The notes under the pieces were generated by a model that was not told the origin of the DNA, searched no databases, and saw only the letters and a program-made list of their open reading frames with translations. This document shows positions 17,179-62,847 of a DNA stretch of 64,000 nucleotides, piece by piece; the first letter of the stretch is position 1; each line of letters starts with the position of its first letter. A program made the translations under genes and the position numbers. The stretch comes from Deferribacter desulfuricans SSM1 (GTDB lineage: Bacteria; Chrysiogenota; Deferribacteres; Deferribacterales; Deferribacteraceae). The DNA lies in assembly GCF_000010985.1 (NCBI RefSeq), contig NC_013940.1, positions 1 through 64,000 of the forward strand, written 5' to 3'.

Positions 17179-17225
17179 TATAATAAATATAATAATTATT
17201 ATTGGTATTAAAAAAGAGGTGTTAA

Positions 17226-18821: not shown

Positions 18822-18880
18822 TGTAGTAAAAAAATATGAAAAATAAAAATGTTTAAAAAAATATTTAAAGGTAGAGCTAT

Positions 18881-20134: not shown

Positions 20135-20157
20135 CTAATAAAAGAGGGTTATGAAAC

Positions 20158-20784: not shown

Positions 20785-20801
20785 TTATAGGGGGTTAATA
20801 T

Positions 20802-21962: not shown

Positions 21963-22008
21963 TAAAGGTAAGAATGTTTTATAATATAGTTTAAGGAGTA
22001 GTTATAAT

Positions 22009-23793: not shown

Positions 23794-23816
23794 AAATATA
23801 GTAAGAGGTAATTAAA

Positions 23817-24944
23817 GTGATAGAAAATTTGCTAAAAGATTTAGGAATAGCAAATGTTAAAAGGAAATTGAAATTAGAAGAATTATATGAATTTTTTAAT
23901 TTTTTAAATAGTTTAATGGCTTTAGGTTATGGTATGGAAACATCTATAAATTTTATATTAAGTAGTTTAGACAAAAAACAAGCTTATTTGAAACAGGTAT
24001 TTACTGAATTAAAGTTATATTTGAGTCGAGGTCAAGCTTTAAGTGATTTTATAGATAAAACTAATTATATAGATAAATCTTATTTACCTTTGATACTTAC
24101 TGGAGAAAAAACAGGTACATTAGCTTTACCTAAAAATAACAGAGAACCAGGGCAACAATCTATTTTTGAAATTATAATTAATGATTTAAAAGAAAAAATT
24201 GAATTATATAAAAAAGTAAAATCTGCTATGACTTATCCAATAATTATTATTACAGTTTTATTTTTATTGATTATAGCTTTAACTTATAAAATTTTACCTC
24301 AAATTATGAAAACATTAATGGATATGGCTGGTGGAGATGTTTCTAAGTTTCCGCCTCAGACTTATTATATGTATAAATACCTTGAATTTATGAAGGCACA
24401 TGGTACTGAAGTTTGGATTGGCTTTGCTGGTGTTATTGGTAGTATAGTTTATTTATTCAAATCAGGTAAAATATTTGAATACCTACAGGATAATTTTTTT
24501 AAAATACCAATAATAGGAAATATATATAAATTAAAATTTTATATGTCATTTTTTGATAATTTAAATACATTTTATTCTGTTGGTTATGATACTGTTACTG
24601 CGTTGAAATTTCTGAAACAAAATGAAAAAAATGTATTTTTAAGAAAATATTATACTGATGCAGTTTTTAAACTAGAGCAAGGTTTACCTTTACATAAAAT
24701 ATTAGACCCAAGATTATTTGAACATATAGCAATAACATTAGTAAAACAAGGTGAAAAAGGTAATTTAGGAGAACAATTCAAATATTTAATTGAACATTAT
24801 AAAGATAAATTATTAAAAACTTTTGAACAGGTTCAGAGTCTTATTCAGCCTATATTATTGTTAGTAGTTGGTACTTTAATGGGTAGTATTATGGTAAGTT
24901 TAGTAAAAGGTATTTATGGATTTATGGCTTTACTTGGGCAATAA
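23817..24944 (+). CDS. pilR: type IV pilus platform protein (PilR/GspF family)
   Basis: A 375-residue inner-membrane protein starting at GTG with AAGAGG upstream. It has the duplicated GspF/PilC layout: cytoplasmic helical domain (about 20-135), first span (about 138-160), second span (about 194-215), second cytoplasmic domain, and last span (about 345-370) after LIQPILLLVVGTLMG, which is the family signature. It is the rotor platform for the ATPase. It ends the pilus operon; the TraL-like gene follows after 38 bases, so the two machines may share a transcript. Confidence 0.9.
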   Translation: MIENLLKDLGIANVKRKLKLEELYEFFNFLNSLMALGYGMETSINFILSSLDKKQAYLKQVFTELKLYLSRGQALSDFIDKTNYIDKSYLPLILTGEKTGTLALPKNNREPGQQSIFEIIINDLKEKIELYKKVKSAMTYPIIIITVLFLLIIALTYKILPQIMKTLMDMAGGDVSKFPPQTYYMYKYLEFMKAHGTEVWIGFAGVIGSIVYLFKSGKIFEYLQDNFFKIPIIGNIYKLKFYMSFFDNLNTFYSVGYDTVTALKFLKQNEKNVFLRKYYTDAVFKLEQGLPLHKILDPRLFEHIAITLVKQGEKGNLGEQFKYLIEHYKDKLLKTFEQVQSLIQPILLLVVGTLMGSIMVSLVKGIYGFMALLGQ

Positions 24945-31229: not shown

Positions 31230-31809
31230 GAAAAACAATAATAGATTTATTAGAAATAATATATGTATAAATAAGAATATTAATAATAAAATTAGCAATA
31301 ACAGAGGCTATACATTTATTGAATTAATTATAGTTTTAACAATTTTAGCTATTTTAATTGGTACGATAATGGGTTCGTATCATGAAAGAAAAATGATAGC
31401 AATATGCAATGCAGTAACAAAAGAATTAGAAAATTTTGCTGAAGCATCATTAATGTTTTATTCTCAAAAGGGTAGGGGTCCAAATAATGCTTCTGAATTA
31501 TATGGCACTTATTTAAAAAAAGTAGGTAATACAAATGTAAGTGGTAAAAGTTATATAGTATCTTCATCTGGTGATGTAATTACTATAACAACTGATGTCC
31601 CATCTGGAGTTGGTACATGTGTACAAAATAATACAAGATTAAGTACTCAAGTAACTGCTTTAAGTGGTGTAGATAGGATTACGTTAACAATTAATGGTGT
31701 TTTGGGAAAGTATTACTTTGATAATAACGCTGATTGGAGTAATTACGAAAAAACTATTATATATAGAGAGATATATAATTTTACAACTGATACAAATACA
31801 AATTATTAA
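31219..31809 (+). CDS. second type IV prepilin/pseudopilin
   Basis: Read from the ATG at 31219 (196 residues), inside the end of the TraD-like gene; a GTG at 31204 is also possible. A long Asn/Lys-rich leader ends RG at residue 30, and the mature helix YTFIELIIVLTILAILIG carries Glu5. The globular part has two cysteines (IAICNAV near the helix end, GTCVQNN) and a major-pilin-like alpha-beta pattern. It is encoded inside the conjugation block, away from the pilus operon, and overlaps the coupling-protein gene, so its product may serve as an adhesin/minor pilin or a mating-pair component. Confidence 0.8.
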   Translation: MLYKKNNNRFIRNNICINKNINNKISNNRGYTFIELIIVLTILAILIGTIMGSYHERKMIAICNAVTKELENFAEASLMFYSQKGRGPNNASELYGTYLKKVGNTNVSGKSYIVSSSGDVITITTDVPSGVGTCVQNNTRLSTQVTALSGVDRITLTINGVLGKYYFDNNADWSNYEKTIIYREIYNFTTDTNTNY

Positions 31810-31821
31810 TTTTTATTATTT

Positions 31822-31850
31822 TTTAAAAATTAGATTTTTTTTGTTATAAT
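31822..31850 (+). promoter_or_regulatory. extended -10 promoter
   Basis: TTTAAA (31822-31827), a 17-bp spacer and TATAAT (31845-31850) preceded by TGT. It drives the PilZ and VirB4-like genes. Confidence 0.68.
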
Positions 31851-31908
31851 AATACATATAAACGATAAAAATATATGTTAATTAAAATATTTTTGTTAAG
31901 GGGTATGT

Positions 31909-32316
31909 ATGATTGGATTTTTAAAAAGTATTTTTAATAATCAAAAAGATAAAGAAAAAATAAAATATCAAATTAAGAATGATAATTTAATAAAAAAAGT
32001 TATTAAAGAAAGAAGAAGAGAACCAAGAATTAAGTACAAAGATGATGTAATAATTAAAGTTTATGATAATGTTATTCATTGTAATAGTTTTGATATTAGT
32101 TATCACGGAATGGGTATAACATTAGATTCAGAATTAAATGCAGCCTTTTTTCATGTTAATCAAATGGTTATGATTAAATTAGATTCTTATAAAGAATATA
32201 TGCATGGAGAAATTAAGTATATTATTAGTAATGATGAATCATTATGTATAGGAGTTCATTTATTAAATCCTACAAGCGAGCATATAGGTTTTGTAAAAAA
32301 ACTAGAAAATAAATAA
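31909..32316 (+). CDS. PilZ-domain protein (c-di-GMP receptor)
   Basis: A 135-residue protein. A basic N-terminal segment (1-34) precedes a PilZ domain with both binding motifs: RRREPR (residues 35-40, supplying the RxxxR pair Arg36/Arg40) and DISYHG (62-67, matching D/N-x-S-x-x-G). PilZ domains bind c-di-GMP and often act on pilus, flagellar or secretion ATPases. It is the first gene of the VirB4-like transcript (35-base gap), so c-di-GMP control of the conjugation ATPase or of pilus extension is a direct inference from context. Confidence 0.88.
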   Translation: MIGFLKSIFNNQKDKEKIKYQIKNDNLIKKVIKERRREPRIKYKDDVIIKVYDNVIHCNSFDISYHGMGITLDSELNAAFFHVNQMVMIKLDSYKEYMHGEIKYIISNDESLCIGVHLLNPTSEHIGFVKKLENK

Positions 32317-32350
32317 TAATAAAATAAATAATAATTGAGGGATAAATAAT

Positions 32351-35300
32351 ATGTTAGACTTATTTAATATAGCAGACATAAAAGATTTTAAATTAGATAG
32401 ATTTGTAGGGTTAGATCATAGAGATGCACATTCTACTTTAGGGTTATTTTTCTTTACGGATGGTAGTATAGGTTTTGCTTTAAAAGTAAAAGGTGCTTAT
32501 CAAGTTATACATAATTTAGATCAATTAGAAAGTAATTACCAGAAAATTGTATCTTTTTATGATAAATTAGTATTTCCTTTTTCAAAGAATACAGGAGCAA
32601 CTTATCAGTATATTTATACTCCTGATTTTGATTACAGTGATTTAGAGCGTAAATTATTAAATAGTAACTTTTTTAAGACAGACAAGGAAGCTTATGAAAG
32701 TTATGCTAAAAATTATGGAGATAAAATAGACGAAATTAAACGTGCTTTAGATGAATTAAATATTAATATTAATTATGGTGATTTTGATGAGCAAGAAAAA
32801 GCTCAAATGAAAAAAGAAATTGCTCAGTTAAGATATGAGTATGATACACTTTTAAAAAACTTTATTAGTTCAACTGGATTTGTAAATTATTTAGAAAAGT
32901 TTTATAATGCTCTTAATTTAAGAACCGTAGAGTTATTAAGAGATAAAATAATAGGAAAAGCTAGAAGACACAGATATTATTTATTTGTAAGATATTATCC
33001 TAATTATAAGGAATTTAATTTTTCTCAAAATGATTTAATAGAAGACATAAATTTAAATTATTTTGATGAAGATAAATTATTAAACCAAACTACATATCAG
33101 ATATTAAAAAATGTAATAACTCATGCGATAGCTGCAAAAAGTAGTTTACCTTTTGGTGGTGAGTTGTTAGATGCAAATCAAACTATAAGTGTTTTGTACA
33201 GGTTTTTAGGATTACCTGCAATGGAATATAATTCACTTACACCAACTACAAGGTTGTTTCCTTATAAAATGGAATTATTACCTGACAAATTAATTGTTTA
33301 TGATGTACCTTCACCTAATATGCCTGTTTTTGATAATAATGGTCATATGATAAATCATAAATTGAAAGACAAAACTTGCGATATATTATTAAAGCTCTAT
33401 TCTTTAACATCTTTACCTGATCCTGGACAAGCAAATTATATGTTACCAACAGATTTTCTAGCAAGGTTAAAAGGGGATTACTCTGTAACGTGGAGTATTT
33501 TTAGAGAAGATAGAAAAGAAACAAGAAAACGTATAAACATGAATAGAAGAACATTTGAATTTTTAGTTGATATTCCATTTCTAGGTAAAAGGTTATTTTC
33601 AGAAGAAGCTGTTGAAATAAAGAGAAAAATGTTTAAATTTGCTGAATTAAATACACAACTTGGAAGTTTTGGTGATTTATTTAGAGTTGCGACTCATGTG
33701 ACATTACGTAAAGCCATTCCTCACGAACATATAACTGAAACATATATTTCTTTAAAAAAAGATAACAGTATTACAATTAATACTAAAGCTGAAGATGTAA
33801 AATTAAATAAAGAGTATGTTAAAATAGCTAGAGAAGATAAAGATATTAGAAATATTGTTTATAAAGATGAGAGAGTTTTCACAATACAAACTGATTATTT
33901 TAGAAAAATTGGTGGTGGTGTTAGTGCATTAGAAGAAACTGATTCTATGCCTGAAATTTTCTTTAATAGTGCTTATCCTTTTACATTTAGAGCGTGGGAT
34001 TTATTAGAAAGATATCAACCTATGTATTCAGCATCTATAGGTGCATTTTTACCTATGTACGAGGAACCAGAAGGCATGACTGAACCAGGTTTAATAGTAG
34101 AAACTTATTCAGGTATATATAATTTAAATCATTTTGCATTACCAGGTGCTAAAAACTATGCTGTAATTGGTGCTACGGGTTCTGGTAAGACATTTTTCCA
34201 AGTAAACAGGAATATAGTAGGATATGGTAAAGGTGTAAGAATTATTTTCGTAGATAGAGGTGGAGCTCTTTTTAGAGCTGTTAAATTCTTAAATGGACAG
34301 AATATAAAATTACGTACATCTTACAATTATGAAGCTATTAAGGACAAACTAAATCCATTTGTTTTAGCTGCACCTGATGTTTTTGAAAGAACAGATGATT
34401 ATGATGAATATAAACAGTCTATTAGAGAGTTTATGGTAACATTGCTTTGTTCGATATGTCAGATGGAAAATGAAAATATAGCTATTAGATATTTTACTGA
34501 ATTATTGGATGACTTATTATTTATAGATTTTAACAAAAATAAGGTAATTAGTGAAACTACAGGTGAAGCTTCTGCTCAAGTAACATTTAGTGATATATAT
34601 AATTATTTACTGAATAAAAGAAATGAACCAGGGTGGAGTGAGTTTTTAAGTAATGATAAAGTATTATCCTCTATTAAGTTATTTACTAAAGGACAATTAT
34701 ATGGTTCATTATTTGATGGTATAGTAAGGAAACCATTAATTACTTCACCTGCTGTGGCAATAGATTTTGAAGGTTTAGAATCTGAATTAGTTTCACAAAT
34801 TTCATTGGCAATTATTAATAGTTATATATGGAATGTTGTGCTGGGGACAGGTGGATTCATTCCAGCCCTCAGCAAGAAATTTCGCTTTACTGACATAGCT
34901 TTAGATGAAGTCTGGTCAACGCTAAAGTCATTATTGGGACAGCGTGTAATTGAGACTGGTATGAGGACTTTGAGGAAGCATGGAGCAGGCATGGGTTTAC
35001 TGACACAAACGGCAGCAGATATAGGTAATTCACCTATTAGAGATGCTGTTGTAAACAATATTCAGAACTTATATGTGTTAGCATCAAACGAAGCTGACGT
35101 AATAAACTACAAAGAAGTTTTTGGTTTTAATGATGTAGAACTTGAACATATTAAACATTTGAAGAGTGAATTTGGTTATTACAATGATATTTATTATAAA
35201 TATTTAGGAAATGCGTATAGACATTTATCAAGTTTTGTTAAATTACGTCCTCTGCCATTAACATATGCAATTGTAACATCAGATGCAGATGATAAGACTG

Positions 35301-35575
35301 TTATTAACATATTACAACAGGAATTTGCTGAAAGATGTGGTGATTCTGAAAATATTAGTTATATGAAAGCAGTATTATTATTTAGTAAATTATTTCCAAA
35401 TAGTGTTAGAAGATATCCGAGATATGCTGAAATAATGGAGAAAGTAGGTAATAATTTAAATAATTTTGTAAAACATGTATTAAACGAAATAAATTTTAGA
35501 TTCGAAGAATTCAATTTAGAGAAGGAATTATTGGATATTAATTTAGATGTAGAAGCTTTACTGGATAATAGTTAA
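32351..35575 (+). CDS. traC: conjugation ATPase TraC/VirB4-like
   Basis: A 1074-residue protein, larger than F TraC (about 875). The N-terminal ~560 residues follow the VirB4/TraC_F layout; Walker A GATGSGKTFF lies at about 605-614 and Walker B DIALDEVW at about 846-853, with a GMGLLTQ segment (conserved TQ) near 878. It is the main inner-membrane-associated ATPase for pilus biogenesis and substrate transfer. The Walker B region (about 34840-35030) has visibly less AT-rich codon use than the rest of the gene. Confidence 0.9.
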   Translation: MLDLFNIADIKDFKLDRFVGLDHRDAHSTLGLFFFTDGSIGFALKVKGAYQVIHNLDQLESNYQKIVSFYDKLVFPFSKNTGATYQYIYTPDFDYSDLERKLLNSNFFKTDKEAYESYAKNYGDKIDEIKRALDELNININYGDFDEQEKAQMKKEIAQLRYEYDTLLKNFISSTGFVNYLEKFYNALNLRTVELLRDKIIGKARRHRYYLFVRYYPNYKEFNFSQNDLIEDINLNYFDEDKLLNQTTYQILKNVITHAIAAKSSLPFGGELLDANQTISVLYRFLGLPAMEYNSLTPTTRLFPYKMELLPDKLIVYDVPSPNMPVFDNNGHMINHKLKDKTCDILLKLYSLTSLPDPGQANYMLPTDFLARLKGDYSVTWSIFREDRKETRKRINMNRRTFEFLVDIPFLGKRLFSEEAVEIKRKMFKFAELNTQLGSFGDLFRVATHVTLRKAIPHEHITETYISLKKDNSITINTKAEDVKLNKEYVKIAREDKDIRNIVYKDERVFTIQTDYFRKIGGGVSALEETDSMPEIFFNSAYPFTFRAWDLLERYQPMYSASIGAFLPMYEEPEGMTEPGLIVETYSGIYNLNHFALPGAKNYAVIGATGSGKTFFQVNRNIVGYGKGVRIIFVDRGGALFRAVKFLNGQNIKLRTSYNYEAIKDKLNPFVLAAPDVFERTDDYDEYKQSIREFMVTLLCSICQMENENIAIRYFTELLDDLLFIDFNKNKVISETTGEASAQVTFSDIYNYLLNKRNEPGWSEFLSNDKVLSSIKLFTKGQLYGSLFDGIVRKPLITSPAVAIDFEGLESELVSQISLAIINSYIWNVVLGTGGFIPALSKKFRFTDIALDEVWSTLKSLLGQRVIETGMRTLRKHGAGMGLLTQTAADIGNSPIRDAVVNNIQNLYVLASNEADVINYKEVFGFNDVELEHIKHLKSEFGYYNDIYYKYLGNAYRHLSSFVKLRPLPLTYAIVTSDADDKTVINILQQEFAERCGDSENISYMKAVLLFSKLFPNSVRRYPRYAEIMEKVGNNLNNFVKHVLNEINFRFEEFNLEKELLDINLDVEALLDNS

Positions 35576-37209: not shown

Positions 37210-39102
37210 ATGAAAATAGTAGTGTATGAAAATAGATTTTTTGTTTATGTATATGATAATCACATATTTAATAAATTAATGCGTGAGTTTTTTGAACAAT
37301 ATTGTATCTATGAGAACCCAAATTTTAAATACATGAACAGTAATTTAGATTTTGTAACTAATAATAATAAAATATATGACGGTATTAATAGATATTATTC
37401 TTTTATTAAAAATAAAGAAAACAAATATATAGGATTTACAGCCGGAATTGGCTTTTATAAGATTTTTATAAAATATTTAGAAAGTAATAATATTTCATAT
37501 GAACTAATAGATAAAAGAAGCGAAGAATATTTAAACTTTTACATTGATGAGAATACTGAATATAAATTTCCTTTAAAAACGGAATTAACTTTTAGAGATT
37601 CTGTAAAAGAGCATTTAAAATTAATATATAGAAATAGAAGAGGATTAGTAGCAGCTGCAGTTAATTATGGTAAGAGTTATGTAGCTTTAGATTTATTAGG
37701 TAAAGCCGGTGAGGGTACTTATATAGTAGCTCAAAAAGGTTTATTGAAGCAATTTCGTGATTTAGTGTTGAATGTATTTGAATTAAAACCAAGAAAAGAC
37801 ATTTGTTACATGTTTAATTCTTTTAAAATTAATTGGAATGCAAAGATATATTTAATTAGTTCAGATATGTTTTATAATAATTATAAAAGAGCATTACAAA
37901 CAATTAAAAACAAAGATAAAGTAAGTAAAGAAGAATATGAGAAAGCAAAAGAAGTCATAAATTACATTCATCATGTTTTATCAAGAAAAGTTGTTTATTT
38001 TGATGAGATTCATGATATCTCCAGGCAGTCCATGTTTGAATTAGCTAAGCTTTGTAAAGCTCCTTATATGTTGGGTGTATCTGGTACCCTTGAAAAAAGG
38101 GGTAAGGAAACTGTAACACGAATGTATTGTTGTTTTGGATATAAAAATGTACTTTATCGAGTAAAAACATCTGATCTAGTAAAAGAAGGGGTATCTGCAG
38201 ATACAACTATAAATGTAATTTATTTTAATAACACATCATTTACTAATACATTATATAAGAAAAACCCATCTATATTAAACAATAAGGAAAAGCTTCTTAC
38301 AGCTTATAGAATTAATAGAAATTTTGCACCTGAAAGAATGTACTTAAGAGCGTATTTAAAAGTATACGATGATTACGTGATTTTTAATAAAGATTTGAAT
38401 ATAATAGCCTTAAATGTAGCTTTAAACAAAGCATTAAAAGAAGATAAAACTACAATTCTATACTCTAATAACATAGATCACTTATTATTACTTTATTTGT
38501 TATTAGATAGATTAAATACTATTAAATTGTTAAATATTATGGATAAAGTAACTGTTATCCATGGGAAAATATCACCTGTTAGACGTAATAGTTTAATTGA
38601 AGGTTTAAAAAACGATAAATATAAAATTGCATTAGTATCAGATGTTGCGACAACTGGATATAATATTCCTAATATACGTTGTATGTTATACCTGGCTAAC
38701 AAGGGTTCAGATTCACTAGTTACACCGTTACAATTTTTAGGTAGAGGACATAGGATTACTGAAACGAAGAAGTATTTTGAATATTATGACTTAACGGCAA
38801 AATTAGCATATATCAACAATGCTACTAGAAACAGAATTAAAGAGTATAAAAAAGAGGGGTATAAAATAAAAGAAACGTTTGTAAATGTAACTGAGAATGT
38901 AAGAATTATGTTTGATGATTTATTTAAATATATAAAAGACAATGCTAATGATTATATTAATAATCCAGAATTAAACAATGTATTTGGAACACATATGCAG
39001 GAATGTTTTTTACACAAATTTATAAAAAAACCTTCACCAGGTACAAAAACAAAAGAAAATATAGTGAGACAGAATAATAATATTCAATTTGAGTTATTAT
39101 AA
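37210..39102 (+). CDS. SF2 DNA helicase (UvsW-like)
   Basis: A 630-residue superfamily 2 helicase. Motif I is a degenerate but usable AAVNYGKSY (about 149-157, Lys155), motif II is DEIH (265-268), motif III lies in GVSGTLEK, and the C-terminal RecA domain shows VIHGKISPVRR, SDVATTGYNIPN and QFLGRGHRI (motif VI). Order and spacing, with an N-terminal accessory domain of about 130 residues, resemble phage T4 UvsW, a fork-remodelling/recombination helicase. With the Mre11-Rad50 fusion nearby it suggests an element-encoded recombination system. Confidence 0.82.
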   Translation: MKIVVYENRFFVYVYDNHIFNKLMREFFEQYCIYENPNFKYMNSNLDFVTNNNKIYDGINRYYSFIKNKENKYIGFTAGIGFYKIFIKYLESNNISYELIDKRSEEYLNFYIDENTEYKFPLKTELTFRDSVKEHLKLIYRNRRGLVAAAVNYGKSYVALDLLGKAGEGTYIVAQKGLLKQFRDLVLNVFELKPRKDICYMFNSFKINWNAKIYLISSDMFYNNYKRALQTIKNKDKVSKEEYEKAKEVINYIHHVLSRKVVYFDEIHDISRQSMFELAKLCKAPYMLGVSGTLEKRGKETVTRMYCCFGYKNVLYRVKTSDLVKEGVSADTTINVIYFNNTSFTNTLYKKNPSILNNKEKLLTAYRINRNFAPERMYLRAYLKVYDDYVIFNKDLNIIALNVALNKALKEDKTTILYSNNIDHLLLLYLLLDRLNTIKLLNIMDKVTVIHGKISPVRRNSLIEGLKNDKYKIALVSDVATTGYNIPNIRCMLYLANKGSDSLVTPLQFLGRGHRITETKKYFEYYDLTAKLAYINNATRNRIKEYKKEGYKIKETFVNVTENVRIMFDDLFKYIKDNANDYINNPELNNVFGTHMQECFLHKFIKKPSPGTKTKENIVRQNNNIQFELL

Positions 39103-39126: not shown

Positions 39127-39573
39127 ATGATTGGTTTTTTATCTTTTGAAACTACAAATGTATTAGATACATCATCAATAGTTGCTTTATCAGTAATAGA
39201 TGAAAATGGAAAGGTTGTAGAATACCGTATTTTTAGCCTTGAAGATGAAAATGAATTTACGATTAAAGCAAAAAAGGTGAATAAATTACAGGTATCGTCT
39301 TCTGATAGGTATAGTTACGAATCTTTTGTTAATTACATTTTAAAAAATAAAAAGAATATTTTTAATAGTAATGATTTTTCTCAGTTTTATTTATTTTTAT
39401 ACGATTTGTTTAATAATATTATGCGAAATTGCATTTTTGATAAAAACATATTTGATAAAATAAATCAGAAATTAATAAACTTACAGGAGCTTGCTTATAA
39501 AAATTATATTGCAAAAGATGAGCAACTAGACTCAACAAGATATTTTGCTTTAAGAGATTCTTATCCATTTTAT
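39127..39573 (+). pseudogene. protein with DnaQ-like start, 5' part, interrupted by IS copy 2
   Basis: 149 codons run to the IS junction. Removing 39574-41419 continues the frame at 41420 and gives a 556-residue protein. The N-terminus (FLSFETTNV, then IVALSVIDENGKVVEYRIF) follows the first strands of DEDD exonucleases such as DnaQ, but the expected catalytic Asp (D-x-E-T) is Ser, so it is probably non-catalytic if homologous. It starts 24 bases after the helicase gene and is probably co-transcribed. The inserted element adds a stop 12 codons past the junction. Confidence 0.62.
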
Positions 39574-39601
39574 CCCTCCACCACCCACAAGACACATTCT
39601 T

Positions 39602-40027
39602 TTAGGTAGGTGATGTAGTGGGTGTCTTCTGGGTTTCAATATATTGTTTGATAACCTCAAGCGGAGCTCCACCACAGGAACCTGCAAAATAGCTTGGAGA
39701 CCATAAAGCGTTTTTCCAGTAATACTGCCTTAATTCAGGATGGATTTGTTTTAGCTTTCTGGAAGAAACACCTTTTAGCGAATTTACCAGTTTTGAGACT
39801 GCCACCTTTGGCGGATAGTTTACAAGCAAATGGACATGGTCGCTTTCTCCATTTAATTCTATCAGTTCTGCCTCAAAATCTTGACAGACTTTGGCGAAGA
39901 TTTCCTTTAAGGTTTCTAAGTGTTTCTTTTGAAATACGCTCTTTCTGTATTTAGTTACAAAGACCAAATGCACATGCAGAAGAAAAACACAATGCCTACC
40001 AGTTCTAATTTTACTTGACTTTTCCAT
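39602..40027 (-). CDS. tnpA: IS200/IS605 transposase TnpA, copy 2
   Basis: The protein is identical to the TnpA encoded at 549-974, with His64/His66 and Tyr129 intact. This copy can supply transposase for all five elements. Confidence 0.93.
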   Translation of the reverse strand: MEKSSKIRTGRHCVFLLHVHLVFVTKYRKSVFQKKHLETLKEIFAKVCQDFEAELIELNGESDHVHLLVNYPPKVAVSKLVNSLKGVSSRKLKQIHPELRQYYWKNALWSPSYFAGSCGGAPLEVIKQYIETQKTPTTSPT

Positions 40028-42726: not shown

Positions 42727-44815
42727 ATGTTATTAGAAGAAAGAACATTAGATGAAATAATTCCTTTAGGAACACCATTTCAGATATATGTTCCGTTGTA
42801 TTATAATAAATATTTTTTAAAAGTAGATTTCAAAGAAAGAATCCAGAATATAAAACAAAATGTAAAATTAGATAGATTATTACTTAATGGTTTAATAAAA
42901 CATGAAAATTTAAATGATATTCTTTATAATGTATTAATGGATTATGTTACAAATTCTGAGAAAAAGGATATTCTTGATCCTGAATCGGTTTTAAAATTGT
43001 CCTCTGCATCTGGTTATATCTCTAATATTTCTGACATAAATGTATATTTATATATTTTACAGTTACAACCTGTTTTTATTAAAAATGATAATAGTTATGA
43101 GATTGGGTTTGCAGTTTATAGCAATGAAAGCAAAAATAGTTGTTATTTTTTATTAGTAAATAGATTGGTTCCTGAAAATAACAAAGAAGTAGTAATTGCT
43201 CCTACAAAGAATAAATATATAATAACTAATAATGACCCTATTAATTTCAATAAAAACGTTAATTCTTTTACTAATTTAGGTTTATTTTATACAGTAGATG
43301 ATGGTAATTCCACATATTTATTGTTAAATGGAACTCTTATAGGTGAATTCCCTGGTAATACTCATATTAGTATTGATGCTATAAATAGTTTAGATGAAAA
43401 GGGTAGTTATGTTCCTGTAATTATTATACATGATAAAAAAGAAAATAAATTACAATTTAATTTATTATATTATAGCAGTTTAGGTACTGAAGACCCTGTG
43501 ATTCAAAGTGAATATGCTACTTATAGTTTAGTAGATACTAATGTAGATTTTAATAAAGTTTTAATCACCAAATTAGATCCTGTTATGCAGTTAAAATTAG
43601 GGCAAGAGTTTGAAAATCAACAAATAAATAAAATAAAAATATTTAATTATTTCAGTTTAAAAAATGTAATTGATTTTATAAGTAGAAATAAAAATATAAT
43701 ACATCAAAAGAGCAATTCTCAGCTTTTAGATGAATTAAAAAATGTAATTAATCATTGTTTAGATTTAAAATATGGAAATAAAAATATTTATAAAAAAATT
43801 GAATCTGATATTTTTGTTCTGAAGGATATTGAAGATTTTACAGGTTATTATAAAAATGAAATTTATTTTAATGACTATGAATATTTTAATGCTTTCAATT
43901 CAATAAGATCATTAACTGAAAATAAATATTTTACGTTTAGTGATATAGCTGTTGTTACAGATAAAAACAGTTATATTTATAGTCTTTATGGTGATAATAT
44001 TATAAATACTAAAAAAATTTATGGAGAAGTATTACATTTTGATAATCATTTTGTTTTAGCTAGGACTAATTCATATTTTAACATATATAAATGGGATAAT
44101 TTAAAATTAGAACGTTTAGATAAATTAAATATTTACGATAGTATTGTATCTAGCAGTTTAAAAAATAAATTTTTGAATATGTCTAATAATAGTTTTCAAG
44201 TATTAAATAATAATTCTGTAATTACTTTTAATAGTGTTTATGATCTATATAGTAAATCTTATGTATTTAAATTAGGTGTTAGCACACAAAATGCTTATAT
44301 TTTTGATATGTTATTACCTTATGATGCTTATACATTACTTAATTACAATAAATATTATTTTAATTCTGTTTTACAGCGTAATTATGTTGAATATATAAAT
44401 GCTATTTATGACACATCTAGTTATACATTAAAACGGATTATAAATTTTAATAATTTATTATATACTTTAGATATTGAGAATTTATTTGAAGATTATGAAT
44501 TACTTGAAAGTCTTCCATTAAAAAATTATTTAGATAGTTTAGCTAATGAAGAAAAGGAAAAATTTATATTAAAATTAAGATTATTAGTTGTATATATTTT
44601 GAATTATTATTATAGAGTATTTTTTAATACTAAAACTGATGAAGTATTACTTTTTGCTAATTATGACTTAATTAAAAAAGTCAATAAATTACCTATTGAT
44701 ATGTTTACAGTAAGTCAGTTATTAAATATTGATGATGTTAACATATTAAAGCACATAACCAATGCATTTCAGATGTTGAGTTTATATATATTAGGTGTAA
44801 CTGATGATAATTTAT
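42727..44815 (+). pseudogene. large unknown protein, 5' part, interrupted by IS copy 3
   Basis: 696 codons plus one base run to the IS junction; joining to 46662-47035 gives an 820-residue protein. The N-terminal ~110 residues are helical, the middle is rich in short beta strands (about 110-300 and 380-560) and the rest is helical. No signal peptide or long membrane span is seen, so it is probably cytoplasmic. I do not recognise the family. The strong promoter suggests high or constitutive expression before the insertion. Confidence 0.65.
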
Positions 44816-44843
44816 CCCTCCACCACCCACAAGACACATTCTT

Positions 44844-45269
44844 TTAGGTAGGTGATGTAGTGGGTGTCTTCTGGGTTTCAATATATTGTTTGATAACCTC
44901 AAGCGGAGCTCCACCACAGGAACCTGCAAAATAGCTTGGAGACCATAAAGCGTTTTTCCAGTAATACTGCCTTAATTCAGGATGGATTTGTTTTAGCTTT
45001 CTGGAAGAAACACCTTTTAGCGAATTTACCAGTTTTGAGACTGCCACCTTTGGCGGATAGTTTACAAGCAAATGGACATGGTCGCTTTCTCCATTTAATT
45101 CTATCAGTTCTGCCTCAAAATCTTGACAGACTTTGGCGAAGATTTCCTTTAAGGTTTCTAAGTGTTTCTTTTGAAATACGCTCTTTCTGTATTTAGTTAC
45201 AAAGACCAAATGCACATGCAGAAGAAAAACACAATGCCTACCAGTTCTAATTTTACTTGACTTTTCCAT
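44844..45269 (-). CDS. tnpA: IS200/IS605 transposase TnpA, copy 3
   Basis: The protein is identical to the TnpA encoded at 549-974; the HUH motif and catalytic tyrosine are intact. Confidence 0.93.
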   Translation of the reverse strand: MEKSSKIRTGRHCVFLLHVHLVFVTKYRKSVFQKKHLETLKEIFAKVCQDFEAELIELNGESDHVHLLVNYPPKVAVSKLVNSLKGVSSRKLKQIHPELRQYYWKNALWSPSYFAGSCGGAPLEVIKQYIETQKTPTTSPT

Positions 45270-45291
45270 AGACCAATACTATAATATAACA

Positions 45292-46623
45292 ATGATTACA
45301 TGTCAAGCCTTTAAATTTAAACTCAAGACCAATGAAGAGTTAGAAAACAAGTTCGCCCAATTTGCCGGCTCTTGTAGGTTTGTATGGAATAAAGCTATTG
45401 CTTTAATAAAACAAAAGCTTGATATAAAAAAGGTAGATAAAATCATCAATATCCACTTGCCACAATATTACAAAAATACTGCTACTATACCTACCTATAA
45501 CGAAATGGCGGGAATGCTTAAATTATGGAAACAATCCGAAGAATACGCTTTCTTAAAAGAAGCACATTCTCAAATTCTACAACAAACCTTAAAGGATTTA
45601 TACAAAGCCATAGACAGTGCTTTTACCAAAGGCAATGGTATATCTTTTCCAGACTTCAGGAAGAAAGGTAAATCGCCAGACAGCTTTAGATATCCTCAAG
45701 GCTTTAAGATAAATAACAATAGAATATTTTTACCTAAAATAGGATGGGTTAGGTTTTATAAATCAAGAAACATAGTTGGCAAACCAAAGAATGTAACAGT
45801 TAAAAGATACGCCGATGGCTGGTATATAAGCGTAGTTACCGAAAAAGACACATCAATTAAAGAAAATCTATCCAACCCCGTGGGTATAGATGTAGGTGTA
45901 AAAAAGATAATCACACTATCCAACGGTTGTTACTTCGAGCCTCTTGATTTAAGTAAATATGAGAAAAAACTAATCAAACTCCAAAGGCAACTCTCGAGAA
46001 AACAACACCCTACCAAAAAAGGAGATAAGACACCGTTTTCTAATAATTACAAAAAACACCAAAGAAAAATAGCAAAGATGTGGCTTAAGATAGCAAATGT
46101 GAGAAACGATTACCTACATAAAATAACAACAGCCATAGCCAAAAAACACGGCTTTGTGGCTGTAGAGAATTTAAAGGTTAAGAACCTAACCAAATCTGCA
46201 AAAGGCACAAAAGACAGCCCCGGACGTAATGTAAAAGCTAAATCAGGCTTAAACAGAAGCATTCTTTCTCGAGCGTGGGGTAGGTTCTTTGAACTGCTTG
46301 AGTATAAACTCCAGAGAAATGGGGGGAAACTGGTTAGAGTTGACGCTAAAAACACCTCTATAACCTGTCCTCTATGTGATTACACTAATAAGGAAAACCG
46401 CAAAAACCAAGCGGTATTTGTATGCAAAAAGTGTGGTTTTACGTCTAATGCTGATTTGGTAGGTGCGATAAATGTTTTAATGAGAGCGATGAGGAAGGAA
46501 AACCTTATAACCCTACCGCAGGGCTTGCGGGAAGTCACGCCTGTGGAGTATGCCAGAGAGTATACGCTGAAGCAGGAACCAGCGGGAAACCGTGAGGGAT
46601 TACCGCTTCCATCGATAGCGTAG
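45292..46623 (+). CDS. tnpB: TnpB RNA-guided nuclease, copy 3
   Basis: The protein is identical to the one encoded at 997-2328, with RuvC residues and zinc finger intact. Its promoter lies at 45257-45285. Confidence 0.93.
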   Translation: MITCQAFKFKLKTNEELENKFAQFAGSCRFVWNKAIALIKQKLDIKKVDKIINIHLPQYYKNTATIPTYNEMAGMLKLWKQSEEYAFLKEAHSQILQQTLKDLYKAIDSAFTKGNGISFPDFRKKGKSPDSFRYPQGFKINNNRIFLPKIGWVRFYKSRNIVGKPKNVTVKRYADGWYISVVTEKDTSIKENLSNPVGIDVGVKKIITLSNGCYFEPLDLSKYEKKLIKLQRQLSRKQHPTKKGDKTPFSNNYKKHQRKIAKMWLKIANVRNDYLHKITTAIAKKHGFVAVENLKVKNLTKSAKGTKDSPGRNVKAKSGLNRSILSRAWGRFFELLEYKLQRNGGKLVRVDAKNTSITCPLCDYTNKENRKNQAVFVCKKCGFTSNADLVGAINVLMRAMRKENLITLPQGLREVTPVEYAREYTLKQEPAGNREGLPLPSIA

Positions 46624-47077: not shown

Positions 47078-47121
47078 AACATTGAATAATAATATAATAA
47101 ACAGTTTTTAGGAGTATTAAT

Positions 47122-50100
47122 ATGAAATGTTTAATAATAGGCGATAGACATGTTTATATTGATACATATGATATTTATTTGGAACAGAGATCAGCTTTAT
47201 TATCATGGTTACGAGAAAATACTGATATTGATTTTATTGTTGAAACAGGTGATTTTTTCCATTTAAGAAAAACAGTTTCTAAAAAATTCATAAGTGATGT
47301 ATTACAAAAAGAATTTGAATTTTTTACTGAACTAAAGAATATAAATCCTGAATTAATATATTATAAAATACTAGGTAACCATGATATATTATCAGAAAAT
47401 ATGGATTCATTATTAAAAGTATTTAATTATTTAGATAATGTAGAGATAATAGACCATACGAAAGAAGTGGATTTTAGTTATAAACATAAAGGAGTTTTTG
47501 TACCTTATTTAAATTCATTAGATTCTATAGATTATAAGGAATTAGAAAACATAACAAGTAATTTAGATACCAAAAATATAAATATTTTATTTAGCCACAA
47601 TTTTCCTTATTTCATAGGTGGAAATGATATAGTTTTACCTAAAAAAGTATTAAATAAATATCAAAGAGTATTTTTAGGACATTATCATAATTATATACAA
47701 AAGGATAATGTAGTTATAGTTGGTTCAACACATCAAGTAAGAATAGATGAATATAATGTAAACAAGTATGTTTTTGTTTATGATTTGGACACTAATCAGT
47801 TTACTAAATTTGAATTACCTTATACAAAGTATAAAGAAATTATTATTCAGAATGAACATGATCTTCAGGCTATATTAAGTGATCCAACAAAACGTGAACA
47901 GTTTGAAAAAGATGTAAGGGATAATTATGTAATATTAAAAGTGTCTGATTTAAATTTATATAATCAAATAGAATCATCATTTAATGTAGTAAATGCTCAT
48001 TTGAAGTTGGACCAGAATATTATAGATAATACTTTGGATAATTTAGAAGATGGGGAATCAGATGAAAGATTATTAAATATAGAAGAAGTAGTAACTCAAG
48101 AGGTTGAAAATAAGATACCTTTATATTTTAGTGATTTAACAGAACAAGACAAAGAAGAGTTAAAGAATGAGATATTACAGATAATTTATCAAAACTTACA
48201 AATTCCTCATAAATCTATTATGGATAAACAATTAGTTTTTGATAAATTGGAATTAAAAAATTTTATTATTGCTGATGATATTACAATTGATTTTAATGAA
48301 TTAAAAAATGACTTATATTTTGTTAAAGGATTAAAATTAGATGATGTAAAAAGTGATTCTAATGGAGCTGGTAAGAGCTTATTATTTGTTAAGAGCATTC
48401 TTTACTGTTTATATGGTAAAAGTAGGTTAGTTTCAGACAAGCAATTATTTAATGAAAGATCAGGTTATGTAAAACTTACTATTAGAAATAATTATACAGG
48501 GGATGTTTATGAGATTGAAAGGGGTATAAAAAAAGAAAAAGGAAGAAACAAAGATAAATTAGTTTATTATGTTCAGATTTTTAAGAATGGAGTTAATATA
48601 TCTCATAAAGAAAAACAAGCGACTCAAAAAATTATAGAAGATGAAATTTTAAATAAGCGTCTTTTAACTAATCTTTATATTTTGGATGGTAGTAGTTTTA
48701 CTGAAAACTTTTTTAATTTGGAACCATCTAAACAGATTGAATTTTTATCAGAGCTGACGTTATTAGACTTTATAGATACGGTTAATGAAACACTTACTGA
48801 AATTCTTAAAGGTTCTAACAAGAAATCAAGTGATAACTCTTTAGGTATATTAGGTAAGAAAGAACAATTACAATCTCAATTACAATTGTTGAGAACACAG
48901 TTAGAAGAAGAAAATGAAGAAACAATACAGAAGCAGATGACTGAAATAAATAAGCAAATTGAGATTTATCATAAAGAAAAGCAAAAACAACTTGAAGAAT
49001 TAAGTAAGGAAGCAGAGAGTTATAAAAAAACTGGACTTCAGAAGAAACAAGAGCTTCAGATAATACAACAGAATCTTTCAAAACTTGATCATAATTTAAA
49101 AGAATTTTTACAACAAGCTAAAATATCCATATTAAGTCATATAGAAAAAAATGTAGACAGTATAGAAAACATTCAGAATAAATATAAAAATTTACAAGAT
49201 GATTATAATAAGCAATTAAAAGAAGCAGATACAAAATGGACAGCTTATTATAATAATACAAATAGTAAAATTCAGAAGTTTAAAAAAGAATTAAATGAAA
49301 AAATAGCTTTAATATCTAAGAATAAAGCTACAATTCAAAGTAATAATAAATTAATCCAGCAATATTTAAATAAAATAAAAGAATTTGAACAGAAAAAGTT
49401 TAAAGAAGGAGATTTATGTAATACATGTAAAACGGAATTAAAAGGTAATGCTTTAAAAAATGCTAATAGTTATTTAGAACAGGAAATAGTAAATTATACT
49501 AAGGAAGTAAATACATTACAGGAGCAAAATGTTGCATTAGAAAATCAAATTCCTGTTTTAGAAGCGGATATTAGAAAACTTGAATCATTGATTAAAGAAG
49601 GTGAAGATCGTATAAATACAGCCAAAGAGAGATACATCTTAAAGAAAGAATCTTTAAAAAATGAGTTTAATGAGAAAGGTAAGTTTTATAAATTAATTTT
49701 TAATTATATAGATAAAGTGAACAATATTTTTTATAATTTTAGTGGTATCTTACAATATCCTCAAGATATAGTAGGATTAGATACTGTAATATCGGATTTA
49801 AATAATCAATATAATAAATTACAACAGGACATATTGAAAGGAAAAGAACTTTATACTAATAAGAAATCTGAGTTGGATATTATTCATAATAAATATGCAG
49901 CTATAATCAATCAAATAAATATTGTTAAAAACCAGGAAAACCCTCATGACAGAAGTTTAAAATTATTAAAGCGAAGTTTAGATGTTGTTAAACAGAAAAG
50001 AGAGCAAGTGAAAAAGCTTGAAAAGGAATTAACAAAAATTATAAGAGAAGAAACTAAGATAAGGCTTTTACTGGATATTTTCAGTAAAAAAGGTCTAAAA

Positions 50101-50715
50101 CAGAAGTTATTAAGGAGATATTTGAATGCCTTAAGTAATATTTTTAAACAACAGATATTGTCTTATGGTAGTGGTAGCATAGAATTTACCGAAAGAAATG
50201 GAAAATTAAATGTTTTATTATACCACAGAGGTAAATTAAAGAATTTTAATGATTTGTCTAGTGGTGAAAAAGTCAGATATATAATGGCTTTTCATGAGTC
50301 AATAGCAATACTATTTCAAAAGATATATAATTTATCATGTAATATACGTACTTATGATGAAATTTTAGCCAATTTAGATACTATAGGTACTAGTGAGATA
50401 TTAAAATCTATTAGAAAGGCTATAAAAAATGAAAATATTAAAGTATTTTTAATAGATCATACAGGCTTAAAAGACATATTTAATGAAAATATTATATATG
50501 TTTGTAATTATAATAATAAAGTACATTATATTAATAATAAAGAAAACTTTATTGCTTGGGTATATCCTTATTATAGAGACAATAAAATATTAAATAATGA
50601 AGTAAAATTTTATATTAATAATTTACTACAAAATATTGATAATTTAGATGAATATGTTAAGAATAACAAAAATAATACTTTGGAAGCTGGACCAGATTTA
50701 ATGCAAATTTTTTAA
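47122..50715 (+). CDS. single-chain Mre11-Rad50 (SbcD-SbcC) fusion nuclease/ATPase
   Basis: A 1197-residue protein joining two normally separate subunits. Residues 1-~250 are an Mre11/SbcD metallophosphatase: GDRH (7-10), GDFFH (43-47), GNHD (85-88), His159 and GHYH (186-189). After an acidic linker (about 290-360), a Rad50/SbcC ATPase begins: Walker A SNGAGKSLL (about 412-420), two coiled-coil arms of roughly 190-220 residues, a zinc hook CNTC (about 765), the ABC signature LSSGEKVR (about 1044-1051) and Walker B YDEILANLD (about 1078-1086). Phage T4 gp47/gp46 and bacterial SbcD/SbcC do this job as two proteins: end processing of DNA breaks for recombination. There is no stop or frameshift between the halves. 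It has its own promoter. Confidence 0.92.
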   Translation: MKCLIIGDRHVYIDTYDIYLEQRSALLSWLRENTDIDFIVETGDFFHLRKTVSKKFISDVLQKEFEFFTELKNINPELIYYKILGNHDILSENMDSLLKVFNYLDNVEIIDHTKEVDFSYKHKGVFVPYLNSLDSIDYKELENITSNLDTKNINILFSHNFPYFIGGNDIVLPKKVLNKYQRVFLGHYHNYIQKDNVVIVGSTHQVRIDEYNVNKYVFVYDLDTNQFTKFELPYTKYKEIIIQNEHDLQAILSDPTKREQFEKDVRDNYVILKVSDLNLYNQIESSFNVVNAHLKLDQNIIDNTLDNLEDGESDERLLNIEEVVTQEVENKIPLYFSDLTEQDKEELKNEILQIIYQNLQIPHKSIMDKQLVFDKLELKNFIIADDITIDFNELKNDLYFVKGLKLDDVKSDSNGAGKSLLFVKSILYCLYGKSRLVSDKQLFNERSGYVKLTIRNNYTGDVYEIERGIKKEKGRNKDKLVYYVQIFKNGVNISHKEKQATQKIIEDEILNKRLLTNLYILDGSSFTENFFNLEPSKQIEFLSELTLLDFIDTVNETLTEILKGSNKKSSDNSLGILGKKEQLQSQLQLLRTQLEEENEETIQKQMTEINKQIEIYHKEKQKQLEELSKEAESYKKTGLQKKQELQIIQQNLSKLDHNLKEFLQQAKISILSHIEKNVDSIENIQNKYKNLQDDYNKQLKEADTKWTAYYNNTNSKIQKFKKELNEKIALISKNKATIQSNNKLIQQYLNKIKEFEQKKFKEGDLCNTCKTELKGNALKNANSYLEQEIVNYTKEVNTLQEQNVALENQIPVLEADIRKLESLIKEGEDRINTAKERYILKKESLKNEFNEKGKFYKLIFNYIDKVNNIFYNFSGILQYPQDIVGLDTVISDLNNQYNKLQQDILKGKELYTNKKSELDIIHNKYAAIINQINIVKNQENPHDRSLKLLKRSLDVVKQKREQVKKLEKELTKIIREETKIRLLLDIFSKKGLKQKLLRRYLNALSNIFKQQILSYGSGSIEFTERNGKLNVLLYHRGKLKNFNDLSSGEKVRYIMAFHESIAILFQKIYNLSCNIRTYDEILANLDTIGTSEILKSIRKAIKNENIKVFLIDHTGLKDIFNENIIYVCNYNNKVHYINNKENFIAWVYPYYRDNKILNNEVKFYINNLLQNIDNLDEYVKNNKNNTLEAGPDLMQIF

Positions 50716-51014: not shown

Positions 51015-51440
51015 TTAGGTAGGTGATGTAGTGGGTGTCTTCTGGGTTTCAATATATTGTTTGATAACCTCAAGCGGAGCTCCACCACAGGAACCTGCAA
51101 AATAGCTTGGAGACCATAAAGCGTTTTTCCAGTAATACTGCCTTAATTCAGGATGGATTTGTTTTAGCTTTCTGGAAGAAACACCTTTTAGCGAATTTAC
51201 CAGTTTTGAGACTGCCACCTTTGGCGGATAGTTTACAAGCAAATGGACATGGTCGCTTTCTCCATTTAATTCTATCAGTTCTGCCTCAAAATCTTGACAG
51301 ACTTTGGCGAAGATTTCCTTTAAGGTTTCTAAGTGTTTCTTTTGAAATACGCTCTTTCTGTATTTAGTTACAAAGACCAAATGCACATGCAGAAGAAAAA
51401 CACAATGCCTACCAGTTCTAATTTTACTTGACTTTTCCAT
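51015..51440 (-). CDS. tnpA: IS200/IS605 transposase TnpA, copy 4
   Basis: The protein is identical to the TnpA encoded at 549-974; the HUH motif and catalytic tyrosine are intact. Confidence 0.93.
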   Translation of the reverse strand: MEKSSKIRTGRHCVFLLHVHLVFVTKYRKSVFQKKHLETLKEIFAKVCQDFEAELIELNGESDHVHLLVNYPPKVAVSKLVNSLKGVSSRKLKQIHPELRQYYWKNALWSPSYFAGSCGGAPLEVIKQYIETQKTPTTSPT

Positions 51441-51462
51441 AGACCAATACTATAATATAACA

Positions 51463-52794
51463 ATGATTACATGTCAAGCCTTTAAATTTAAACTCAAGAC
51501 CAATGAAGAGTTAGAAAACAAGTTCGCCCAATTTGCCGGCTCTTGTAGGTTTGTATGGAATAAAGCTATTGCTTTAATAAAACAAAAGCTTGATATAAAA
51601 AAGGTAGATAAAATCATCAATATCCACTTGCCACAATATTACAAAAATACTGCTACTATACCTACCTATAACGAAATGGCGGGAATGCTTAAATTATGGA
51701 AACAATCCGAAGAATACGCTTTCTTAAAAGAAGCACATTCTCAAATTCTACAACAAACCTTAAAGGATTTATACAAAGCCATAGACAGTGCTTTTACCAA
51801 AGGCAATGGTATATCTTTTCCAGACTTCAGGAAGAAAGGTAAATCGCCAGACAGCTTTAGATATCCTCAAGGCTTTAAGATAAATAACAATAGAATATTT
51901 TTACCTAAAATAGGATGGGTTAGGTTTTATAAATCAAGAAACATAGTTGGCAAACCAAAGAATGTAACAGTTAAAAGATACGCCGATGGCTGGTATATAA
52001 GCGTAGTTACCGAAAAAGACACATCAATTAAAGAAAATCTATCCAACCCCGTGGGTATAGATGTAGGTGTAAAAAAGATAATCACACTATCCAACGGTTG
52101 TTACTTCGAGCCTCTTGATTTAAGTAAATATGAGAAAAAACTAATCAAACTCCAAAGGCAACTCTCGAGAAAACAACACCCTACCAAAAAAGGAGATAAG
52201 ACACCGTTTTCTAATAATTACAAAAAACACCAAAGAAAAATAGCAAAGATGTGGCTTAAGATAGCAAATGTGAGAAACGATTACCTACATAAAATAACAA
52301 CAGCCATAGCCAAAAAACACGGCTTTGTGGCTGTAGAGAATTTAAAGGTTAAGAACCTAACCAAATCTGCAAAAGGCACAAAAGACAGCCCCGGACGTAA
52401 TGTAAAAGCTAAATCAGGCTTAAACAGAAGCATTCTTTCTCGAGCGTGGGGTAGGTTCTTTGAACTGCTTGAGTATAAACTCCAGAGAAATGGGGGGAAA
52501 CTGGTTAGAGTTGACGCTAAAAACACCTCTATAACCTGTCCTCTATGTGATTACACTAATAAGGAAAACCGCAAAAACCAAGCGGTATTTGTATGCAAAA
52601 AGTGTGGTTTTACGTCTAATGCTGATTTGGTAGGTGCGATAAATGTTTTAATGAGAGCGATGAGGAAGGAAAACCTTATAACCCTACCGCAGGGCTTGCG
52701 GGAAGTCACGCCTGTGGAGTATGCCAGAGAGTATACGCTGAAGCAGGAACCAGCGGGAAACCGTGAGGGATTACCGCTTCCATCGATAGCGTAG
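51463..52794 (+). CDS. tnpB: TnpB RNA-guided nuclease, copy 4
   Basis: The protein is identical to the one encoded at 997-2328, with RuvC residues and zinc finger intact. Its promoter lies at 51428-51456. Confidence 0.93.
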   Translation: MITCQAFKFKLKTNEELENKFAQFAGSCRFVWNKAIALIKQKLDIKKVDKIINIHLPQYYKNTATIPTYNEMAGMLKLWKQSEEYAFLKEAHSQILQQTLKDLYKAIDSAFTKGNGISFPDFRKKGKSPDSFRYPQGFKINNNRIFLPKIGWVRFYKSRNIVGKPKNVTVKRYADGWYISVVTEKDTSIKENLSNPVGIDVGVKKIITLSNGCYFEPLDLSKYEKKLIKLQRQLSRKQHPTKKGDKTPFSNNYKKHQRKIAKMWLKIANVRNDYLHKITTAIAKKHGFVAVENLKVKNLTKSAKGTKDSPGRNVKAKSGLNRSILSRAWGRFFELLEYKLQRNGGKLVRVDAKNTSITCPLCDYTNKENRKNQAVFVCKKCGFTSNADLVGAINVLMRAMRKENLITLPQGLREVTPVEYAREYTLKQEPAGNREGLPLPSIA

Positions 52795-62071: not shown

Positions 62072-62393
62072 ATGTTTAAACATGTAAAATTTAACACAAT
62101 TAAAATTAGTAGAAAAAATATTTTAAGTTTTTTATTAATGTTTTTATTTTTTGTTTTCTTAGATAATAGTTTTGCTTTTGCATTTGTACGTGTTTATCCT
62201 CAATTGATTACTTTTGATTTAGACAAAAAGCAGACTACTTTTGCTGTAACATTAGAAAATGCAGGAAGTACAAATGAAACATATAAACTGTATATTGGTT
62301 TTTCTTATATAAATGATGAAGGTAAAGTTGTAGAAATAAAAGAAATAAGTAAAGTAGATAAATATGATCTGTCACTTAAGAAATCTCTTTTAT
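62072..62393 (+). pseudogene. pilus chaperone-like protein, interrupted by IS copy 5
   Basis: 107 codons plus one base run to the IS junction. A signal peptide (about 17-36, ending AFAF) precedes an immunoglobulin-like domain start (VRVYPQLITFDLDKKQTTFAV, LENAGSTNETYKLYI), matching the first strands of periplasmic chaperones of chaperone-usher systems. AAAGGAGG lies upstream. The insertion adds ten foreign residues and a stop. The rest of the gene lies beyond the right edge of the window, after the element. Confidence 0.65.
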
Positions 62394-62421
62394 CCCTCCA
62401 CCACCCACAAGACACATTCTT

Positions 62422-62847
62422 TTAGGTAGGTGATGTAGTGGGTGTCTTCTGGGTTTCAATATATTGTTTGATAACCTCAAGCGGAGCTCCACCACAGGAA
62501 CCTGCAAAATAGCTTGGAGACCATAAAGCGTTTTTCCAGTAATACTGCCTTAATTCAGGATGGATTTGTTTTAGCTTTCTGGAAGAAACACCTTTTAGCG
62601 AATTTACCAGTTTTGAGACTGCCACCTTTGGCGGATAGTTTACAAGCAAATGGACATGGTCGCTTTCTCCATTTAATTCTATCAGTTCTGCCTCAAAATC
62701 TTGACAGACTTTGGCGAAGATTTCCTTTAAGGTTTCTAAGTGTTTCTTTTGAAATACGCTCTTTCTGTATTTAGTTACAAAGACCAAATGCACATGCAGA
62801 AGAAAAACACAATGCCTACCAGTTCTAATTTTACTTGACTTTTCCAT
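62422..62847 (-). CDS. tnpA: IS200/IS605 transposase TnpA, copy 5
   Basis: The protein is identical to the TnpA encoded at 549-974; the HUH motif and catalytic tyrosine are intact. Confidence 0.93.
   Translation of the reverse strand: MEKSSKIRTGRHCVFLLHVHLVFVTKYRKSVFQKKHLETLKEIFAKVCQDFEAELIELNGESDHVHLLVNYPPKVAVSKLVNSLKGVSSRKLKQIHPELRQYYWKNALWSPSYFAGSCGGAPLEVIKQYIETQKTPTTSPT

Follow-up and report, generated by a model that had tools for sequence, protein, structure and literature searches.

A locus on the megaplasmid of the deep-sea thermophile Deferribacter desulfuricans SSM1 raises the question of whether an Mre11-type nuclease (SbcD) and a Rad50-type ATPase (SbcC) can be encoded there as one functional polypeptide, and from what kind of lineage such a protein would derive. 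We analysed the first 64,000 nucleotides of the plasmid (contig NC_013940.1, assembly GCF_000010985.1, forward strand; hereafter the window), in which positions 47122–50715 of the + strand form a single open reading frame (ORF) running from ATG to TAA through 1197 codons with zero internal stops. A ribosome-binding-like word, AGGAG, is found in the sequence seven bases 5' of the ATG (47110–47114, + strand). We consider it highly probable that this megaplasmid gene encodes a complete one-chain Mre11-Rad50 (SbcCD-type) machine for DNA-end processing, of phage or mobile-element type and not derived from the split nuclease/ATPase pair carried by the chromosome of the same genome.

An earlier note on this DNA had proposed a single-chain Mre11-Rad50 fusion with the nuclease and Rad50 motifs in one unbroken 1197-residue ORF, and every motif it named could be located. 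The nuclease motifs GDRH, GDFFH, GNHD, SHNFP and GHYH begin at residues 7, 43, 85, 158 and 186, and the Rad50 motifs SNGAGKS, CNTC, LSSGEK and YDE at residues 413, 766, 1045 and 1078. The domain search suggested in that note likewise returned both halves in one protein: Pfam Metallophos covers residues 1–191 above its cut-off, AAA_23 covers residues 375–619 below its cut-off, and the PHROG SbcD-like (phrog_100, E 3.4e-24) and SbcC-like (phrog_77, E 1.7e-61) families match the same chain. Canonical NCBIfam models scored far under their cut-offs (TIGR00618 for sbcc, 7.3 bits versus 478.5; NF003034 for Rad50, 22.5 versus 700), which indicates a divergent, phage-type member. Third-position guanine-cytosine content is low along the whole gene (0.09–0.24 per 100 codons), and the protein matches its own genome at one place only. 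The union of nuclease and ATPase motifs in one ORF is therefore real and not a product of chance, and the covalent link, which the earlier note held to fix the stoichiometry, implies a 1:1 ratio.

The fusion had been presented in that note as an unusual new observation; the same gene has been in print since 2011. Yoshida, Claverie and Ogata described thirteen Mre11/Rad50 fusions (PMC3175470), among them D3PEM5_9BACT of D. desulfuricans SSM1, placed there on a 308-kb megaplasmid between IS200/IS605 transposases. We judge the gene at 47122–50715 to be D3PEM5_9BACT, matched by description: the lengths of both contigs of the genome, the size of the megaplasmid and the pair of IS200/IS605 sets beside the gene all correspond, and the class definition, both domains in one uninterrupted ORF, describes what is found here. 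As in this gene, Mimivirus R555 and the other eleven fusions carry the nuclease first and the ATPase in the same chain. As a discovery the observation thus has little weight, since fusion and gene are already known. The literature searched on Deferribacter and SbcC yielded nothing beyond PMC3175470; added to it here are the position of the seam, the absence of fusion in 46 viral loci, a P-loop insertion and a divergent chromosomal pair.

The full chain was modelled as a monomer with AlphaFold2 (mean predicted local distance difference test 74.3; predicted template modelling score, pTM, 0.49) from an 86-row alignment, A4, which combines the fused protein with two phage read-throughs, 41 rows for the nuclease and 42 for Rad50, drawn from 84 nuclease and 52 Rad50 filtered candidates. 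Pfam, phrog_100, the model and Foldseek together delimit an Mre11-like phosphoesterase with capping region at residues 1–293 (47122–48000, + strand, as for all parts of the gene). The metallophosphoesterase motifs characteristic of Mre11/SbcD (D-x-H, GD, GNHD, H and GHxH) and the domain itself are present, as are, in the secondary structure of the predicted model only, the capping domain and a C-terminal helix-loop-helix, the latter spanning residues 314–359 (helices 320–335 and 341–359; 48061–48198). Alignment and model place a seven-residue seam of low model confidence at residues 360–366 (48199–48219); residues 362–367 are modelled with low confidence and the Rad50 fold starts at strand 371–379. 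The Rad50 N-lobe begins at Met367 (48220–48846; alignments and model), with the P-loop at 413–419 after a nine-residue insertion. It is at Met367 that phage gp46 proteins have their start region in the alignment, and residues 330–400 contain no Shine–Dalgarno-like word. The two halves are therefore joined almost without a seam, and Rad50 is not expected to be started on its own.

Beyond the N-lobe, the model predicts an outgoing coiled-coil arm at residues 576–757 (48847–49392), and motif, alignment and model place the zinc hook, CNTC at 766–769, at 49393–49446. A returning arm follows at residues 776–986 (49447–50079; model), both arms being helices with short breaks. The C-lobe (50080–50532; motifs, alignment and model) carries LSSGEK at 1045, YDE at 1078 and the H-loop His1113, and a C-terminal extension of mostly low confidence closes the protein (50533–50712; alignment and model). 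Two structural features of Rad50/SbcC are found: a pair of antiparallel coiled coils joined by a CxxC zinc hook, and a split ATP-binding cassette head that has Walker A, signature, Walker B/D-loop and H-loop. The description of the coiled coils as short in the earlier note holds only in part. The predicted arms of ~180–210 residues fall under those of a cellular-size SbcC of 1042 aa, whose hook lies at residue 518, yet they exceed those of four T4-like gp46 proteins, which are 560–579 aa in total, with the hook at 288–296, and allow only shorter arms.

Could the single frame be an artefact, a stop codon lost through an assembly or base-calling error that joins two separate genes in the deposited sequence? 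The gene is flanked by two copies of an insertion sequence (IS) of IS200/IS605 type (family name from PMC3175470), upstream at 44844–46623 (two ORFs, tnpA-like on the − strand and tnpB-like on the + strand) and downstream at 51015–52794 in the same orientation, identical at 1780 of 1780 bases compared. This identity favours a misassembly, as does the viral evidence set out below, where the two genes are separate and one error could fuse them. However, both IS copies are over 1.5 kb away from the junction (~48200–48220), no premature stop interrupts the 1197 codons, and no Shine–Dalgarno-like word survives over residues 330–400 as a possible trace of a separate Rad50 gene, although coupled genes can do without. 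With twelve other sequences reported as such fusions (PMC3175470), an error of this kind is extremely improbable.

Relatives of the two halves bear out the statement of the earlier note that the subunits are normally separate genes. Two alignment-based scans of viral contigs gave the best 80 of 368 confirmed loci and at least 69 loci, with at least one contig common to both. Among these 149 loci listed, tblastn found the nuclease half in 116 and the Rad50 half in 79; of the 46 loci that hold both, none has them in a shared ORF. The Rad50 start coincides with the final sense base of the nuclease gene in at least six loci (L037, L062, L120, L161, L163 and L174), and at L147 the two genes are in frame, three bases plus a stop apart. 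In the phage collection, none of the 195 matched records spans 80% of the query at a single location. The top three (a ‘Listeria phage’ contig, EniLVp02 and XG4) were considered as fusions and rejected, because a stop separates two in-frame adjacent genes; the tblastn match runs across that stop as one piece in EniLVp02 and in the ‘Listeria phage’ contig and as two in XG4, and the XG4 and EniLVp02 pairs have 3-nt gaps. Record OR846945.1, named Listeria phage LM 4-11-1, looks by eye like a cellular contig, its SbcD of cellular size adjoining a 1042-aa SbcC followed by an SNF2-like helicase.

The search for homologues with the same fusion, also proposed in the earlier note, found none in the genome, viral or phage scans. 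Single-protein scans confirmed no close relative among genome contigs or viral contigs; the sole plasmid matches, seven Aeromonas records, extend over 16% of the query; and within the phylum the 49 genomes other than that of D. desulfuricans itself gave no relative at E 1e-5 (no more than 14 candidates were scored in each). The phrog_77 profile matches 40 of the 50 phylum genomes and 13 of 14 controls, which indicates that it also catches cellular SMC/SbcC-type proteins; its sole match stronger than the fused gene is a 648-codon frame in genome G018, unfused by its length. The fused state is thus rare, in line with the sporadic distribution reported for such fusions, which were found not to be monophyletic and whose spread was attributed to viruses, plasmids and transposons (PMC3175470), and separate relatives do not contradict the fusion.

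Conservation across A4 supports an intact protein. Of the 43 nuclease rows, between 39 and 43 retain D8, H10, D44, N86, H87, H159, H187 and H189. All 44 Rad50 rows retain G415, G417, K418 and S419, the two cysteines of the hook, S1046, G1048, E1049, D1079, E1080 and H1113. The fused protein has nine extra residues between the strand and the P-loop. The column of residue 412 is empty in the other 85 rows, 44 of which include viral Rad50, and four aligned T4-like gp46 proteins are without the insertion, whereas all three SPO1-like phage Rad50s examined carry an equally long one in this position.

Several observations weigh against reading the protein as a complete machine of this family. Identity to aligned relatives is just 19–26%; residue 47, at the end of the second nuclease motif, is His versus Asp in all 43 nuclease rows; the column for Asp88 of GNHD is not cleanly aligned in the fused protein's alignment; the ATPase signature is LSSGE versus FSEGE in all 44 Rad50 rows; and the position of the first Walker A glycine is occupied by Asp412, the last residue of the insertion. 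In the structural comparison, the top two Foldseek matches, which speak for the family, are chains of an Mre11-Rad50-Nbs1 complex (E 6.5e-17 and 5.2e-16), and Mre11/SbcD and Rad50 chains come separately further down; SMC-family chains, which speak against it, occupy ranks 3–14. Interdomain placement is poor (pTM 0.49; TM to query at most 0.24 among the matches listed), so the relative placement of domains in the model is not trustworthy. Both halves sit on very long branches without firm placement, and the nuclease and ATPase activities, the expression and the M2R2 assembly as a dimer of the fused protein are predictions made from sequence. A PDB sequence search returned nothing at E 0.01. Mimivirus R555 is reported likewise to have His in place of Asp in its second nuclease motif (PMC3175470).

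Two further explanations were weighed against the DNA-end-processing enzyme. The first makes it a defence ATPase-nuclease, either of Lamassu type or of a similar SMC-like class. The PADLOC LmuB model matches residues 375–932 (E 3.7e-10) and Lamassu structures appear at Foldseek ranks 20, 21 and 34; LmuB is itself SMC/Rad50-like, however, so such a match is expected. With phrog_77 far stronger (E 1.7e-61), a nuclease of Mre11-type metallophosphoesterase class and no Lamassu operon partner among five neighbouring proteins, none of which matched PADLOC at E 0.01, we rejected this very unlikely explanation. The second, likewise very improbable, takes the gene for a degenerate passenger that the IS elements on either side have moved and that no longer functions, for which its position between two copies of one element and its very long branch speak. 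Catalytic and structural motifs are nevertheless intact across 1197 codons, with a ribosome-binding-like site in front, and the plasmid carries ~17 IS copies (60-base probe: five in the window and 13 in 60001–308544, one counted twice), which makes IS flanking unremarkable.

Known pairs offer a comparison that bears on the origin of the gene. T4-like gp47/gp46 share gene order, nuclease motifs and the CxxC hook with the fusion at 19–26% identity, but are separate genes for shorter proteins and lack the P-loop insertion in the four aligned. SbcD/SbcC of SPO1-like phages (Bacillus P59 and Enterococcus A155, whose records are Herelleviridae, and Mammaliicoccus MSShimriz1, whose record is unclassified) share the nine-residue insertion before the P-loop, but are encoded separately, two of the three pairs having a small intervening ORF, and reach 21–22% identity. 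In trees of 25 rows per half, the fusion halves stand on branches of 3.3–3.6 changes per site; the nuclease half groups with T4-like rows with support of 93/87, which falls short of the starred level, and the Rad50 half has no resolved position. Such long branches and loose placement make a phage origin likely, not proven, and the ancestry appears to be of mobile-element or phage type, with no closer placement.

The chromosome offers a second comparison. The genome consists of two contigs totalling 2,542,933 bases, a plasmid of 308,544 (of which the window is bases 1–64000) and a chromosome of 2,234,389, the sizes also given in Table 1 of PMC6896113. Canonical sbcC and sbcD models gave sub-threshold matches only on the chromosome (for SbcC, 12 of 40 first-look candidates scored). 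TIGR00619 and motifs there identify a split pair at ~1399374–1402950 (L024:3375–6951): an SbcD-like gene of 378 aa (62 bits versus a cut-off of 77.65) and an overlapping gene of 817 aa for a coiled-coil ATPase with P-loop and signature and no CxxC. A similar pair occurs in the same-genus genome G010; both pairs we take to be YhaO/YhaN-like. Like the fusion, the chromosomal pair sets an Mre11-type nuclease beside a coiled-coil ATPase; unlike it, the pair comprises two overlapping genes, lacks a CxxC hook and lies on long branches apart from the fusion in both trees. It qualifies the remark in PMC3175470 that every cellular host of a fusion except Deferribacter has a normal separate set.

Within the D. 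desulfuricans genome, phrog_77 found nothing but the fusion at E 1e-10 (13 of 97 first-look candidates scored). That the plasmid protein is the only hook-bearing Mre11-Rad50 in the cell nevertheless seems rather doubtful to us. If true, a mobile element would supply the main end-processing machine of its host; alternatively, the megaplasmid would conduct T4-style recombination-dependent replication, drawing on the helicase, RecJ and topoisomerases that it carries. Because the chromosomal pair is split and hookless, a role of the plasmid copy for the host becomes a question that can be asked.

Judged from its domain content, the protein most likely works as a cis-assembled Mre11-Rad50 that processes plasmid DNA ends. 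The order seen in sequence or model is metallophosphoesterase (with the residues for metal binding and catalysis), helix-loop-helix, seven-residue seam, Rad50 N-lobe, coil, hook, return coil and C-lobe. Two chains would pair via their nuclease domains and ATPase heads, and the helix-loop-helix would bind in cis, at the coil root of the Rad50 half in its own chain. In the ATP state the heads would close over the nuclease; DNA-end binding and hydrolysis would then move the nuclease onto DNA, where hairpins or blocked ends would be cut and resection begun. The 3' ends may be passed to the chromosomally encoded RecA of the host for repair or recombination-dependent plasmid replication, perhaps helped by the plasmid helicase and RecJ. 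The fusion itself probably arose when a stop was lost between adjacent nuclease and Rad50 genes. The earlier suggestion of an altered clamp mechanism found no support here: nuclease end and Rad50 start are argued to lie ~28 Å apart in a known complex, a distance that a short link fits, and the order of the fusion to suit that complex with a short linker sufficing (PMC3175470). We expect the link to be neutral to the clamp. A single-chain Mre11-Rad50 from a thermophile, its subunit ratio fixed and perhaps stable, could be a handy structural object.

Possible partners occur elsewhere on the plasmid. A DNA helicase lies 8 kb upstream (37210–39102, + strand; phrog_16 E 5.1e-32, Pfam Helicase_C), which we take to be UvsW-like by analogy; in cyanophage S-ShM2, a uvsW helicase gene likewise precedes gp47, by ~1 kb, and gp46 comes next but one. 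The megaplasmid also carries genes for the gyrase/topoisomerase IV B and A subunits and a RecJ-like gene (L018:12270–14201, L019:577–3078 and L020:9258–11168). It has no RecA match, both RecA-family matches being chromosomal. Within the window, a near full-length topA-like protein (4862–6979) matches strongly, below the equivalog cut-off, and a second, shortened topoisomerase IA-like protein (14461–16104) has a best match covering residues 6–186 only.

Five copies of the IS200/IS605-type element lie in the window (at 549, 39602, 44844, 51015 and 62422), identical over the bases compared, the last cut by the window end. ORFs 42727–44847 and 62072–62425 read into the IS left end, where both end with a common C-terminal SLHHPQDTFF and so look truncated by IS insertion; ORF 39127–39609 likewise runs into an IS copy. 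A conjugation-type coupling protein and a TraC/VirB4-like ATPase are encoded at 29250–35575, below equivalog cut-offs, and nearby, at 16690–24944, genes resembling type II secretion or type IV pilus components were recognized by eye.

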